Source: Acidimicrobiia bacterium
GTDB taxonomy: Bacteria > Acidobacteriota > Vicinamibacteria > Vicinamibacterales > CAVVIG01
Assembly (NCBI GenBank): GCA_016871175.1
Contig: VFZL01000003.1
Coordinates: 62,001-126,000, forward strand
DNA length: 64,000 nt
Direction: 5' to 3'
Shown: piece after piece, positions 11,383 to 20,966 of the stretch
How the letters are laid out: the number at the start of each line of letters is the position of its first letter
How positions within the stretch are numbered: position 1 is the first letter of the stretch
Notes under the pieces: model-generated
The model's database searches: none
Seen by the model: the letters and a program-made list of their open reading frames with translations, nothing else
What the model was told of the DNA's origin: nothing
Position numbers and translations under genes: made by a program

Positions 11383-14344
11383 TTAGAAAGAGTAGAGAAA
11401 CCCGAGCTCGACAATCCGTGGCGGCAGCACGTCCGTGGGCCGGCCGAAGTTCGGGCCTGACAGCCGGGTGACGTCCAGCACTGGATTCGCGTTGAGGATA
11501 TTGAAGATGTTCACGCGCATGCCCGCCTTCTGGCCGCGTCCCAAGTCGAAGTTCTTCTCGACGCGCCAGTCGACCTGATGGCTGAACGGCAAACGCCGCG
11601 CGCCGATGGGCTCGACGTTGAGCGTGATGTTGGGAATGGTACGTCCCCCCGTGAACTGCACCTGTCGCGCCCAGGGGTACCCGCTGCGCGCCTCGTAGTT
11701 GACCGACGTCAGCAATCCGTACGGCAGCTGATAGACACCTGATAGCTTCCAGGTGTTCTCCCAATTGCGATCCGCAGTGTTGATCTCGTTGTTCGGATTG
11801 AGCGGTGCGCTCTCGACGTTTCCGTTGAACTCACCCGCCGCCGTCGTCGCGGGCTGAGTCAGATCCGTGTAGATGAACGGGACGTTTCGCTTCGTCGCGG
11901 AATACGACCCCGTGAGCTGCCACCGCTGCGACAAGCGCTTCGAGACCGCGACGTCGATGCTGTTGTACTGCTGATTGGCGTTCGGATCGTTCACTCGGCT
12001 GAATCGCTCGAAAGCCCGGCCGGCGAGACTCTGGGGGAACTCGGAGTACGTGAAAGTCCGTCCCGGGTCGTCGCTCGTGTTGACACGTCCATCCGGTCCA
12101 GGATCCGGTGCCGCGATTGGCACGCTGTAGGCCGAGTACGGCCGCAGCGTGTTCAGAATGCGGTAGGTGTTGCTGTACCGCGAGTACAGGTAGGTGGCCC
12201 GAACACCGAAGTTCTGCATGAGCTCACGCTCGAGCGACAACGAGACCTCGTCGCTCTTCGGCTGCCGTTCATCGGGATTAGGGAAGAAGTTGCTGCCGCC
12301 CGACTGGGAGATGAAGTCCGGGCCATTGAGATTCAGATTCGACTCGCCCGCATCATAGACCCGGTTGCCGTTAAAGTCGCGCCATCTGAAGGTGGTGGTG
12401 GTGCGCACCTGCCAGTCTGCCGCGTCCATTTCCGGCACTTGTTGGCGCTGATGGTCGAATCGCCCCCAGCCCCCCCTTGAGCACCGTCTTCCCGTTGCCG
12501 AAGAGATCCCACGAGGCGTGCAACCGCGGTGCGACGCTGCTCCAGATGTTGAACTGCTGTTTGTCGCGACACCCCGCAGGATACACGGCGTCAGCTGGAA
12601 ACGCCGCCGCGACCTGACAAGACGCCGGCACGAACCCGTTGTCGTGCGCGTAACGCAACCCAAGATTCAACGTCACGCGGCGGCTGACCGACCAACTATC
12701 TGTCAGGTACGTGCCGAGGTAGTGACTGACGACTTTCGCCTCGGCGGGATTGTTCCACATCTCCACGCGACACGGTGTCGCGGCGCCCGCCGAGACCTGA
12801 CACGAGGCGAACCCGTTCGACGGTCGCAACCGATAGGGCCACACCCACGAAGAAAACGCGCCGGACAGTTGCGTATTCGGATCGAGAAGCGGGTACTGTC
12901 GTCCGAACCAGTTGTCCGTGTAGTCGAACCCGAACTTGAACTCGTGACTACCGATCAAGAGCTCGGGCTTGTACAGCGTCGCGTTCGCCTTGTAGTGATA
13001 GCGCGGGTTGTGCGGCCGTTGACCAATCGTCGCCATCGGACCGAGATTCAACAGCGTTTGCAGGTCGAGACTGGGGGGCGTGTCGCGGGGCGCGAAGCTC
13101 CAGTAGTGGCTGTCGTAGGTCCAGTAGCCCACCTGGGCGGAGGTGACGAGCTGATTGCTCCACACCCGTTGCAACTCGACCTTCGCGGTTCGACTCGGCG
13201 TCATCAAGCCGCCGCGATGCTCCCACGGGAAGAACTGGCTCAAGGTGCTGGTGGTGTATTTGTGATTGAACTGATAGAACCCGACAAGCCGATTAGCCTT
13301 CGACATCTGGTACGACAGCTTCGAGGTGACGAAGTACGCGACTTCCTTGGCGATGGCCGGTGTCACGCGGTCAGGCATGAACGTGTTCAACGGCTGGGAA
13401 TCGTCGATCTGCCGGCGCGCGGCCCCGTAGAACCAGAGTCTGTCGCGAATGAGGCGACCACCAAGATCCGAGCTGATACTGTAGCGGTCGGCCAAGTCGG
13501 TGCCGCCGGCGAGCCCGAGGGCGCGCAAGCGATCGTCGATATTGCTGCTCTGAAAGCCAGGCCCCGTTTTGTTGAATGCCGTGTTGCTGTGGAAATCGTT
13601 GCCTCCCGACTTGACGATGCCCACCAGATTCACGCCGCGGCTCGGCACTTCGGCGCTGTTACCTAACGTGCGGACAGCCGCCTCCTCCAGCGTGGTGTAG
13701 TCCCAGTAGTTTGCCTGGCCGCTTGAGGCTTGCAGGCTGCTCGTCTGCACGCCCTCGAGCGTCGAGTATGCTTCTCCCGCCTGCCCGAAGACGCGATAGG
13801 TCGGGACCTCGTTGAGCGAGCTGCCGCCGACATCCCGCAGCGTGCGCACGCCGGGCGCCTGCGCCAGCAGGCTCACGATGCCATTACGACTGGTTGGCAG
13901 GAGCTCGATGGTCTCGCGCGTGAACTGCGTGGTCGCTGCGGTGGAGGAGGTGTCGACGACGGGAGCCGCGCCTGACACCGTAATTGTCTCCTTGAGTGAT
14001 CCGACCTTCAGTGGAACATCGATGCGCGCCGTGAACCCCACGGTCAGACGCACACCCTCTCGACGCACGCTCTGGAAGCCGGACAACGTGTACTCGACGG
14101 TGTAGGTGCCAATCGGGAGTGGCATCAACCGATAATCGCCCCGCTCGTCGGAAATCGACACGACCGACGGCACCTGCAGCGACGGGCTCGTCGCGGTGAC
14201 CGTCACGCCTGGCAGCACGCCGCCGCTCTCGTCGGTCACCTGTCCAACGATGCCGGCCTCCTGCGCAGAGGCGGATGCGGTCAGCGCCAGCGCGACCAGA
14301 ATCGCGCCGGCGACGTGCGTGGAGCCGAGACGACGCCTGTCCAT
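11383..14344 (-). pseudogene. Oar-like TonB-dependent receptor, frameshifted
   Basis: Two overlapping ORFs (12371-14371 and 11383-12663) are the two halves of one outer-membrane receptor. The first half has a signal peptide, a carboxypeptidase-regulatory-like domain (GIVGQVTDESGGVLPGVTVT), a plug (LLAQAPGVRTL) and the start of the barrel. The second half finishes the barrel and ends in the expected terminal Phe (LGFLYSF). The frame changes at a run of seven Gs on the coding strand (12470-12476); removing one G gives KGGWGRFD and a single 986-residue protein. The start at 14344 has AGGAGGGTGGT just upstream. This could be a true lesion, slippage-based on/off switching, or a sequencing error. 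It follows module B and may import a substrate or product of that system. Confidence 0.85.
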
Positions 14345-16823: not shown

Positions 16824-17754
16824 GTGTCGGGAGGCAACCCTCGCTTTGGCGCCCACATGTCGGTGGCCGGCGGCCTCCCCCGAGCGGTTGAACGCGCCCA
16901 GGTGCATGGGTGCGAGGCGCTGCAAATCTTCACAAAGAACGCGAGCCGCTGGCGAGGGCGACCCGTGTCAACAGATGAGATTGCCCTGTTTCGGGAACGA
17001 GTTGAGAAAGCTGGTATCAGGCCTGTCGTGTCGCACGCCAGTTATCTCGTCAATCTGGCGGCGTTCCATCCGGCGCTCCGCCGCCAATCGATCGAAGCCA
17101 TGGCTGACGAACTCGATCGAGCGGAGTCACTGGGCTTGCTCGGCGTTGCCTTGCATCCGGGGTGTTCCACGTCCGCCGGGGCGCAGCACGGAATCGGGCT
17201 CGTCGGCGAGGCCTTGCTCGAGCTCCTTCGGACACGTCCGCATGGGCGAACGATGATCCTGCTGGAGCAGACGGCCCGGACAAGGCACGACACTCGGGTC
17301 ACGCTTCGAAGAGCTTGCCGCGATTATCGACCGCACGGACGGTCACGTTTGCATCGGAGTCTGCCTCGACACATGCCATCTGCTGGCCGCGGGCTAAGAC
17401 CTCACGACCCCTGCTGGGTATCGAGAGACCTTCGACACGTTCGAGAGGCTCGTCGGCTTCAGCCGGCTGCACCTCGTGCATGTGAACGATTCAAAGCGGC
17501 CACTGGGCAGCCGCGTCGATCGCCATGAGCACATCGGCAAGGGGTTCGTGGGCGTGGGAGCGTTTCGTCGGCTCGTGAACGACCGCAGGTTCGCGGGTCT
17601 CCCGATGCTGCTCGAGACGCCCAAGGCATATGCCGGCAAGCCGGCCGGTGCGATTCTGGGGGATCCGCTGGACCTTGCGAACTTGAAGCTGCTTCGGGGC
17701 CTCGTCGCGACCGCGCCGCGCCGCGCGACGCACGTGCATCGACGTCCCGTTTAG
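16824..17754 (+). pseudogene. nfo: Endonuclease IV (AP endonuclease) pseudogene, frameshift plus nonsense
   Basis: The 5' part (GAHMSVAGGL, CEALQIFTKN, VSHASYLVNLA, LHPG) and the 3' part (HVNDSK, DRHEHIGKG, LLETPK) are those of endonuclease IV, a zinc enzyme of base excision repair. The expected EQTAGQG is broken by one extra C near 17275-17277. The correct frame then continues through [11 protein letters not shown] to an in-frame TAA at 17395-17397, where the family has a Tyr codon. With the extra base removed the length is 309 codons. All metal ligands remain recognisable, so the damage is recent or partly due to sequencing error. Two independent lesions favour a real pseudogene. Confidence 0.85.
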
Positions 17755-17763
17755 ACGATCACG

Positions 17764-18228
17764 TGCGCGCTCAACCAGCCTCGGCGACATCGAAGCTGCT
17801 GCTGCCAGTTCAAAGCGAACTGGGAGTGCCAGGCTGGGTCGTCGCCGGGGCATGCTCGCCCTGCTCGTATCGGCAGTCCTGGCTCCACCCGTTGGCCGGT
17901 TGAGTGACAGGGGTCACGCTCCACGCGCGATGGTGCTCCTCTGGATCGCTGGGGCCGCGTTGCTTGTGCTGTGGGCATGGGTGCCGAGCGTGCTGACACT
18001 GTACGCCGTGGGGGGCCTATCTGGTGCAGGGCCGATTCGGTCCTGATCACACAGGCGCTGTCAATGGACGGCTCGCGCGCGTTCAACTACTCACCCGAGC
18101 GGCCGGGCGCATTGCTGCATCCGGAGCGGCGATGCTGTCCAGCCACGCCGCGGTGCTCGTGTCCCTGAGTGTGGCGCTTGGACTGCTCGCGTGGCGAGTG
18201 ACCGAGTATCCTCGGGCATCGGTGCGTC
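17764..18228 (+). pseudogene. Major facilitator superfamily transporter remnant
   Basis: Pieces of an MFS protein appear in different frames. VQSELGVPGWVVAGA is in one frame. LLVSAVLAPPVGRLSDRGHAPRAM plus a following membrane segment (VLLWIAGAALLVLWAW) is in a second frame. VNGRLARVQLLTRAAG plus a last membrane segment (AVLVSLSVALGLLAW) is in a third. The first two blocks match the TM1-TM3 region and the motif-A loop; the last looks like TM11-TM12, so most of the middle is missing. At about 465 bp, against roughly 1,200 bp for a full gene, it is a deletion derivative that cannot encode a transporter. Confidence 0.7.
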
Positions 18229-18230
18229 GG

Positions 18231-19082
18231 TCACGGGCCCACGATCTCGGCTTCGAATCGAGAGATGATGATGGCGCCCGACTTCCACGCGTCGTGCCGC
18301 AGGCCGGCCTTCTCGCACGTGTGAGCCAGGAACTGCTCCCGCGTCCAGCCCCACTCGATGGCCACTTGCGGGAGCAGCAGCCCACGGCGAGATCCATGCT
18401 CGACAATCAGGCCATGCCGTCCGAGCTCGATGGTCTCGATGTCGGTCACGCGCTCGATGACAGCCTCGTCGAGCTTTGCCGCGATCGGCGCGTCGTTGTA
18501 GTGCGACAGGTCGGTGCTGGCGATGAACATCACGCGCCGCCCGGCGAACGTCTCGGCCAAGGCGCGCCCCAACTCGGATGCGGTCTCTGCCGTTTGGCGT
18601 CCCAGGAGCAAGGGCACGATTGGCACGTGCGGGCACACTCGACACAGGAACGGGAGCTGCATTTCGATCGAATGCTCACGAGCATGGGCCGCCTCGTGTT
18701 CACACACAAGGGCCGAAGCCGCCGCCAACGCGGTCACCGACGCTTCGTCGACCGTCACCAGGCCAAAGGGAGTCTCGAAGGCGTCTGCGCGCGTCACCGC
18801 CACCCCCTCGAACTCGACGAAGTGCGAGGGTCCGACCAACACGACGAGGTCGAGTGCGCAGCCCTGAAGCTCTCGATAGGCGTACGCCGCCACCGGTCCG
18901 GAGTAGCGCAGCCCCGCGTGCGGGGCCACCAGCGCCGTGAGGTCGGTCACAGCCGACCACTCGCTCGGATCCGGTCCGCCGGCCGTCGCGGACGCCAGGT
19001 ACTGGTCGACTTCCTGCGCCAGAACGTCGGCGATTCCGGGATACCAGCGCCCGGCGACGGCTGCGGGACGGGTGACGGCCAT
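18231..19082 (-). CDS. Chimeric Memo-AMMECR1 protein (AmmeMemoRadiSam B front, A tail)
   Basis: The ATG at 19082 starts MAVTRPAAVAGRWYPG, the usual Memo-family N-terminus. Residues 1 to about 209 are Memo-like (APHAGLRYSG, VGPSHF, EHSIEMQLPFL, STDLSHYND). From about residue 211 the sequence is instead the tail of AMMECR1 (GRHGLIVEHG, RRGLLLPQVAIEWGW, FLAHTCEKAGLRHDAW). The end of Memo and most of AMMECR1 are missing, yet the frame is open for 283 residues. The simplest reading is an in-frame deletion between neighbouring memo and AMMECR1 genes. Memo and AMMECR1 belong to the AmmeMemoRadiSam set with a radical SAM enzyme, which is not in this window. The chimera is probably non-functional, or a novel fusion. 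Confidence 0.75.
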   Translation of the reverse strand: MAVTRPAAVAGRWYPGIADVLAQEVDQYLASATAGGPDPSEWSAVTDLTALVAPHAGLRYSGPVAAYAYRELQGCALDLVVLVGPSHFVEFEGVAVTRADAFETPFGLVTVDEASVTALAAASALVCEHEAAHAREHSIEMQLPFLCRVCPHVPIVPLLLGRQTAETASELGRALAETFAGRRVMFIASTDLSHYNDAPIAAKLDEAVIERVTDIETIELGRHGLIVEHGSRRGLLLPQVAIEWGWTREQFLAHTCEKAGLRHDAWKSGAIIISRFEAEIVGP

Positions 19083-19177
19083 CAGCGATCTAGAATCTAC
19101 TCCTCCACACGCTCCGGCAGAACGGCCGCCGCGACGGCTGCGGCTGAGCTGTCTGCGATTCGGTGCTAGCATCTGGC

Positions 19178-19477
19178 ATGCCTGCTGTCTTTTCCCGGGC
19201 GGAGATCGCGCGAATTGCCGCGCTCGCCCACCTCGAGCTTGGCGAACACGAGGTTGAGCTGTTCGCCGACCAGCTCGGCGATATCCTCGGGTACGCGAAC
19301 CAACTGCAGCCGATCGACACGACTGGTGTCCCGCCCACATCGAGTGTCGTCATCGAAGACGAGGGTGAGCGGGCGGACGCGGTCGTGCCGAGCGTCGATC
19401 GCGAGATCGCGCTGGCCAATGCCCCCGACGCGTCGCTCGAGGTGGGACTCTTTCGCGTGCCGCGTGTGATCGGGTAG
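19178..19477 (+). CDS. gatC: Aspartyl/glutamyl-tRNA(Asn/Gln) amidotransferase subunit C
   Basis: This 99-residue protein begins [21 protein letters not shown] and has the family pattern of a helix, the [19 protein letters not shown] loop, and the C-terminal fragment rich in Ala/Asp. It stabilises the GatA-GatB core that converts Glu-tRNA(Gln) or Asp-tRNA(Asn) to the amide form. The ATG at 19178 is preferred over the GTG at 19163. gatA follows after 7 bases. gatB is not in the window, so the complex must be completed from elsewhere. Confidence 0.92.
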
Positions 19478-19484
19478 ACCACGG

Positions 19485-20966
19485 ATGGCGCACACGACAC
19501 TCAGCGCCGCGCGCACGGCGTGGCAGGTGGGAGCACACTCGGCCGTCGAGCTCTGCGAAGCGTCGCTCGCCGCCATCGCCGATCAGGACCCGGTCCTTGG
19601 AGCGTTCACTGAGGTCACGGCGGACCGCGCATTGAGTCGAGCCGCCGCGATCGATCGGGACCGCGAGGCATGGGCACACCAGCCGCTAGCCGGCGTCCCA
19701 GTGGCGATCAAGGACAACCTCTGCACTGCCGAAGTCCGCACGACGGCTTCGTCGCGAATACTCGAAACCTTCGTCCCGCCGTACACGGCAACAGCGGTCG
19801 CCAAGCTCGAAGCCGCCGGCGCCATCATCATAGGCAAGACGAATTGCGACGAGTTCGCGATGGGGTCGTCGACAGAGAACTCCGCGTTCCGCGTGACGCG
19901 GAATCCGTGGGCGACCGACCGCATACCCGGCGGATCGAGTGGCGGGTCTGCGGTGGCGGTGGCCTCCGGGATGGCTCCCCTCGCGCTCGGCTCGGACACA
20001 GGCGGATCCATCAGACAACCGGCGGCGCTCTGCGGCATCGTCGGCCTCAAGCCGACCTACGGACGCGTGTCTCGATACGGGCTGATCGCGTTCGCCTCGT
20101 CGCTCGACCAAGTCGGTCCGCTCACGTGGACGGTCGCCGACGCCGCGCTGGCACTCTCGGTCATCGCGGGCGGCGATGCGGCCGACGCCACGAGTGCGCC
20201 GCATCCGGTCCCGGACTACACAGTGGGGCTGACGGGGAACGCGCGCGGTCTTCGGATCGGCGTGCCGCGCGACCTCCTGAATGGCGAGGGTGTCGATGCG
20301 GATGTCGCGACACACGTCCAGCAGGCGCTCGAGACGCTCAAGGCTCGAGGAGCGTCGATCGTCGACATTGCGCTGCCGACTGCGGCGGCAGCCATCCCAA
20401 CCTACTACCTGGTGGCCACGGCCGAAGCCAGCTCGAATCTGGCGCGCTACGACGGCGTGCGTTACGGCTTTCGTGCGCCGGCAGAGGGACGCGACACGCT
20501 ACGCGCGATGTACTGCCGGACGCGCGAGCGGGGCTTCGGCGCGGAAGTCAAGCGACGGATCATGCTCGGCACCTACGTGCTCAGCGCCGGCTACTACGAT
20601 GCGTACTACCTGAAGGCCCAGCAGGTGCGCACGCTGATCCGGCGGGACTACGAGCGCGCGTTTGAGCAGGTCGACCTCGTCGCGATGCCGACAAGCCCGA
20701 CACCGGCGTTTCGCATCGGAGAGCGCATCGCCGATCCGGTCCAGATGTATCTGGCCGACATCTTCACGGTCAGCGCCAACCTCTCGGGGCTTCCGGCGAT
20801 CAGCGTCCCCTGTGGCTTCAGCACCGAGGGGCTGCCGATCGGCCTTCAGCTGACCGGACGGCACTTCGACGAAGCCACGCTCCTTCGCGCGGCAGACGCG
20901 TACGAGCGCGACGCGAACTGGTCTGTCCATCGTCCGCCCCACGTGGGGGCCCGCACACATGCCTGA
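19485..20966 (+). CDS. gatA: Aspartyl/glutamyl-tRNA(Asn/Gln) amidotransferase subunit A
   Basis: This is a 493-residue amidase-signature enzyme that releases ammonia from glutamine for the transamidation of mischarged tRNA. The Ser-cisSer-Lys triad is visible: Lys in PVAIKDNL, the Gly/Ser-rich signature [14 protein letters not shown], and the cis-Ser in the same block ([15 protein letters not shown]). The length is normal and no residue is missing. It overlaps the following metallopeptidase gene by 8 bases (ATG at 20959 inside the end of gatA), so the four genes from gatC to the ATP-grasp ligase look like one transcript. Confidence 0.95.

Follow-up and report, generated by a model that had tools for sequence, protein, structure and literature searches.

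The window analysed here, a 64-kb stretch of DNA, carries on its minus strand an ORF of 283 aa (19082..18231) that combines parts of two protein families. Its Memo half (18456..19082, minus strand, residues 1-209) shows 53-60% identity to the memo genes of the family, a set of 27 genomes made up of the source genome (G000) and 26 others, and it is followed by an AMMECR1 C-terminal remnant (18231..18443, minus strand, residues 214-283 plus the stop codon). In Pfam, residues 7-217 match Memo (PF01875, profile positions 2-209 of 269, E=1.5e-50) with 172.3 bits, above the curated cut-off of 27, and residues 210-280 match AMMECR1 (PF01871, profile positions 97-167 of 168, E=5.1e-22). Among the NCBIfam models, TIGR04336 scored 209.5 bits against a cut-off of 26 (E=5.2e-62), with the match ending at profile position 212 of 270, and TIGR04335 (E=1.9e-18) reached 66.5 bits, below its cut-off of 99. 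Against PDB sequences, human MEMO1 is matched up to residue 212 of 294 and chain 1vaj over residues 127-190 of 214. Pfam, NCBIfam and PDB sequences all agree with the original prediction, in which one ORF joins the first ~209 residues of a Memo protein to the last ~75 of AMMECR1. The C-terminal part could have been Memo-like; alignment places it with AMMECR1 rather than with the C-termini of Memo, and this ruled out a divergent Memo C-terminus as the identity of the tail. A contig search with the chimera as query returned a Treponema Memo as its sole match, and an Rfam search of the chimera region matched no RNA element. With an in-frame ATG further upstream, the ORF would reach 19340, inside gatC; since intact memo genes start in alignment with the ATG at 19082, this codon was taken as the start of the chimera.

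The N-terminal histidine motifs of Memo (PHAG, GPSH and DLSHY) are present in the chimera. His55, His87 and His194 are invariant with the relatives, and the first two correspond in the alignment to the histidines of PHAG and GPSH in human MEMO1. The C-terminal ACGGGP motif of the family relatives is missing, so the chimera does not qualify as a full-length Memo; nor is it a full-length AMMECR1, as it stays below the TIGR04335 cut-off and lacks LRGCIG, or a fusion of two complete domains, given its 283 aa versus about 550 aa in the fusions L067 and L069. What has been lost is the last ~65 residues of Memo, including the ACGGGP cysteine motif, and roughly the first 110 residues of AMMECR1, including LRGCIG. 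The ACGGGP cysteine appears to correspond to human Cys244, which has been modelled as a metal ligand together with His49 and His81 (PMC9477392). Judging from its sequence, the product, if made, is most likely inactive, because Memo has lost its cysteine motif and AMMECR1 the N-terminal part that holds LRGCIG.

The ancestral arrangement of the two genes is preserved in the relatives. Matches to memo or AMMECR1 were found in 21 of the 26 other family genomes and in none of the remaining five. As the original prediction had led us to expect, intact memo and AMMECR1 genes lie next to each other on the same strand of one contig, memo first, in all 19 genomes that span the place; G018 and G025 fall outside this count because their contigs end there. 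In the conserved order of the family, nfo is followed by AMMECR1 and memo, which lie on the opposite strand, and these by gatC and gatA. Counted from equivalent positions in the window and the relatives, the join is longer in the relatives, in most of them by 527-664 bp and in the genome of the same genus (G001) by 565 bp; three relatives fall outside this range, with an excess of 488 bp in one and of 825 and 907 bp in the other two. Both this layout and the missing 527-664 bp (in most relatives) support the predicted origin by one deletion, which took the 3' end of memo and the 5' end of AMMECR1. The source genome is a 4.44-Mb draft in 85 contigs, 96.8% complete, and searches of these contigs with the chimera and with AMMECR1 gave no further match.

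The two parents meet at residues ~210-213, i.e. at ~18444-18455, inside the interval 18440-18460 where the junction had been expected. In the alignments, similarity to intact Memo extends to about VI (residue 209), and similarity to intact AMMECR1 sets in at about VTDIE (residue 212). Between them, a comparison with the relatives' codons (memo VIDRV, AMMECR1 EPVT) delimits a junction zone (18444..18455, minus strand; residues 210-213, E R V T) that is both Memo-like and AMMECR1-like: in one and the same frame, the codons GAG CGC GTG ACC at 18455-18444 are compatible with either parent. A short microhomology at GTGAC is therefore plausible, and the exact position of the breakpoint is an inference. 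No long repeats were found around the breakpoint; the only matches there are short ones of the GTCGGTCACG type, one of which sits at the junction. Retention of the reading frame was considered as a sign of selection and rejected: any deletion that joins co-directional genes stays in frame by chance in about 1 of 3 cases, and this GC-rich DNA has few stops, a plus-strand frame being likewise open over 18024-19169, so that frame retention does not show function.

The DNA next to the chimera is damaged as well. The endonuclease IV gene nfo (16824..17754, plus strand), usually a conserved DNA-repair gene, is a pseudogene here, with an intact 301-aa homologue in G001. Two independent lesions disrupt it: one extra C near 17272-17277 shifts the frame by +1, and an in-frame TAA at 17395-17397 stands in place of the Tyr codon found in G001. 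This broken copy is the sole nfo of the source genome. An MFS transporter remnant (17781..18200, plus strand), identified by tblastn with the MFS protein of G022 (L065), separates nfo from the chimera. It matches residues ~47-125 and 342-402 of this 410-aa protein, is frameshifted and lacks residues ~125-341; its PF07690 match (E=3.4e-5) is under Pfam's cut-off. Among the 27 family genomes, only the window and G022 gave this MFS match, and G001 has no MFS gene at this place, AMMECR1 following directly after nfo. On the other side, the damaged patch ends at gatC: the divergent neighbours gatC and gatA (19178..20966, plus strand) are intact, conserved in order and alignable over their full length with G001 and the family, and the genes from gatC on are intact. 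The window shares ~28 genes with G001, and clear damage among them is confined to nfo, memo-AMMECR1 and a TonB-receptor-like gene. The last of these, a TonB-dependent receptor-like gene at 14932-11386 (minus strand), has a frameshift near 12480 and an intact 1191-aa homologue in G001. The locus thus shows what a deletion remnant would be expected to show: intact, adjacent ancestors in the relatives, loss of the conserved core and damaged surroundings.

Memo and AMMECR1 belong to the AmmeMemoRadiSam set (TIGR04335, AmmeMemoSam_A; TIGR04336, AmmeMemoSam_B; and the radical SAM protein TIGR04337), so that the chimera consists of parts of A and B. These parts keep the order and the neighbourhood of the intact pair of the relatives, whereas in the source genome B is truncated, A is reduced to its last third or so, and the radical SAM partner was not found: a TIGR04337 search of the 96.8% complete draft gave no match, although control genomes did match. 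TIGR04337 is present in 17 of the 27 family genomes, 16 of the 21 with memo/AMMECR1 versus one of the six without the intact pair (Fisher p=0.015, with related genomes that are not independent). Five genomes (G007, G013, G016, G023 and G025) have memo/AMMECR1 and no TIGR04337, and G006 shows the reverse case. Given these exceptions, linkage of the three genes is not strict in the family.

Full-length fusions of Memo and AMMECR1 do occur in nature. L067 and L069 were read through and are 550 aa each with both motifs kept, and many matches in the phylum sit in open frames of about 500-550 aa. Like the chimera, these proteins have Memo first and AMMECR1 last in one chain; they differ in that they keep the Memo cysteine motif and LRGCIG, both absent from the chimera. 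In addition, the natural fusions of the order are divergent paralogues with 36-40% identity to the Memo half, whereas the chimera derives from a pair of separate genes. No second chimera of its kind, defined as one match running across both halves, was seen among the matches listed for 162 genomes of the order or for a phylum sample of 396 genomes; because the matches are listed by rank, a strong chimera should appear near the top, and weak ones may be missed. In an AlphaFold2 model of the chimera, most of the Memo half is confident (block means up to 96), confidence is poor from ~residue 192, and pLDDT is <50 for most of residues 212-283. The input alignment held Memo rows only, with no AMMECR1 alignment behind the tail, and the low confidence of the tail is therefore weak evidence.

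We then compared the state of the chimera with that of intact genes. The Memo half keeps 60 of 62 family-invariant residues (intact G001 Memo, 59 of 62) and the AMMECR1 half 28 of 30 (intact G001 AMMECR1, 28 of 30), a total of 88 of 92 with no stop. GC3 is 82-84% in the chimera, 81% in gatA and 71-76% in the nfo pseudogene. The distances of the source genome and of G001 to the rest are about equal, with ratios of 0.98 for Memo and 0.92 for AMMECR1 (1.07-1.18 for intact neighbours), showing that the chimera evolves no faster than G001's intact memo and AMMECR1. An undecayed chimera of this sort fits either a young deletion or a product that is still under constraint.

Taken together, we consider it probable (roughly three chances in four) that one recent deletion of ~0.56 kb between memo and AMMECR1 left the chimera as its scar, in a decaying patch and with a product that is most likely inactive. 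In an ancestor with adjacent, co-directional memo and AMMECR1 genes, the deletion would have started near Memo residue 210 and reached about two thirds of the way into AMMECR1, and the remaining ends would have fallen into one reading frame; the chimera would then belong to a small patch of decay together with nfo and the MFS remnant. A recent loss is favoured because these adjoining genes are broken too. The likeness to in-frame fusion by deletion during pseudogene formation is close, as co-directional neighbours are joined, the intervening DNA is gone and broken genes lie beside them; the chimera differs only in which two genes are involved. An unlikely alternative is that the cells, or most of them, have intact memo and AMMECR1 genes and that the assembler joined across a gap or followed a minority variant. 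The assembly is a fragmented and incomplete draft, the frame errors in nfo and the TonB receptor gene lie within 5 kb and could reflect locally poor sequence, and the lack of sequence decay in the chimera would be explained. However, the place lies within a 196-kb contig, and with no long repeat at the breakpoint in the window, where the deleted DNA itself is not visible, a typical repeat-driven misjoin is not expected. Moreover, a misjoin at memo explains neither the nonsense codon and frameshift in nfo nor an MFS remnant that G001 lacks, and no further piece of memo or AMMECR1 is present in the assembly.

The original prediction had left the choice between a deletion fossil and a minimal fused version. 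The fossil is favoured, as the motifs of both proteins are gone, the radical SAM partner is not found, and nfo and the MFS gene are broken. That the N-terminal part of Memo and the C-terminal part of AMMECR1 form a working protein under selection is quite improbable, even though the frame is open, the start region is intact, GC3 is high, and family-invariant residues are kept on both sides of the junction without acceleration of the rate. The natural full-length fusions of ~500-550 aa in the order and the phylum do indicate that linking Memo to AMMECR1 is compatible with function, yet those examined retain precisely the two motifs that were lost here, Memo with the putative Cys244 equivalent in its missing ~65 residues and AMMECR1 with LRGCIG in its missing ~110. 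Both the order genomes and the phylum sample lacked a second case among the matches listed, and the model of the tail, built with no AMMECR1 alignment, is of low confidence. It is highly improbable that we are looking at a stripped-down protein able to function with neither the Memo cysteine nor the N-terminal part of AMMECR1 nor a radical SAM partner; a functional chimera would change the view of which parts a widely conserved, poorly understood system needs at minimum. The chimera is most likely a scar of gene loss and not a new kind of protein.

As a gene-loss scar it is ordinary but clean, and it confirms memo and AMMECR1 as once adjacent partners. Annotators should list the ORF as neither protein A nor protein B of the AmmeMemoRadiSam set. 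The chimera adds a case in which the pair is lost and a radical SAM match is missing from the genome as well, which fits a joint loss, weakly supported as that is. Within the genus, the source genome and G001 share 55-62% identity in memo/AMMECR1 (L042 in G001) versus 76-87% in gatC, gatA and the next two genes; with the pair so much more diverged than its neighbours, the comparison of the two sequences suggests fast evolution or replacement of memo/AMMECR1 in this genus.
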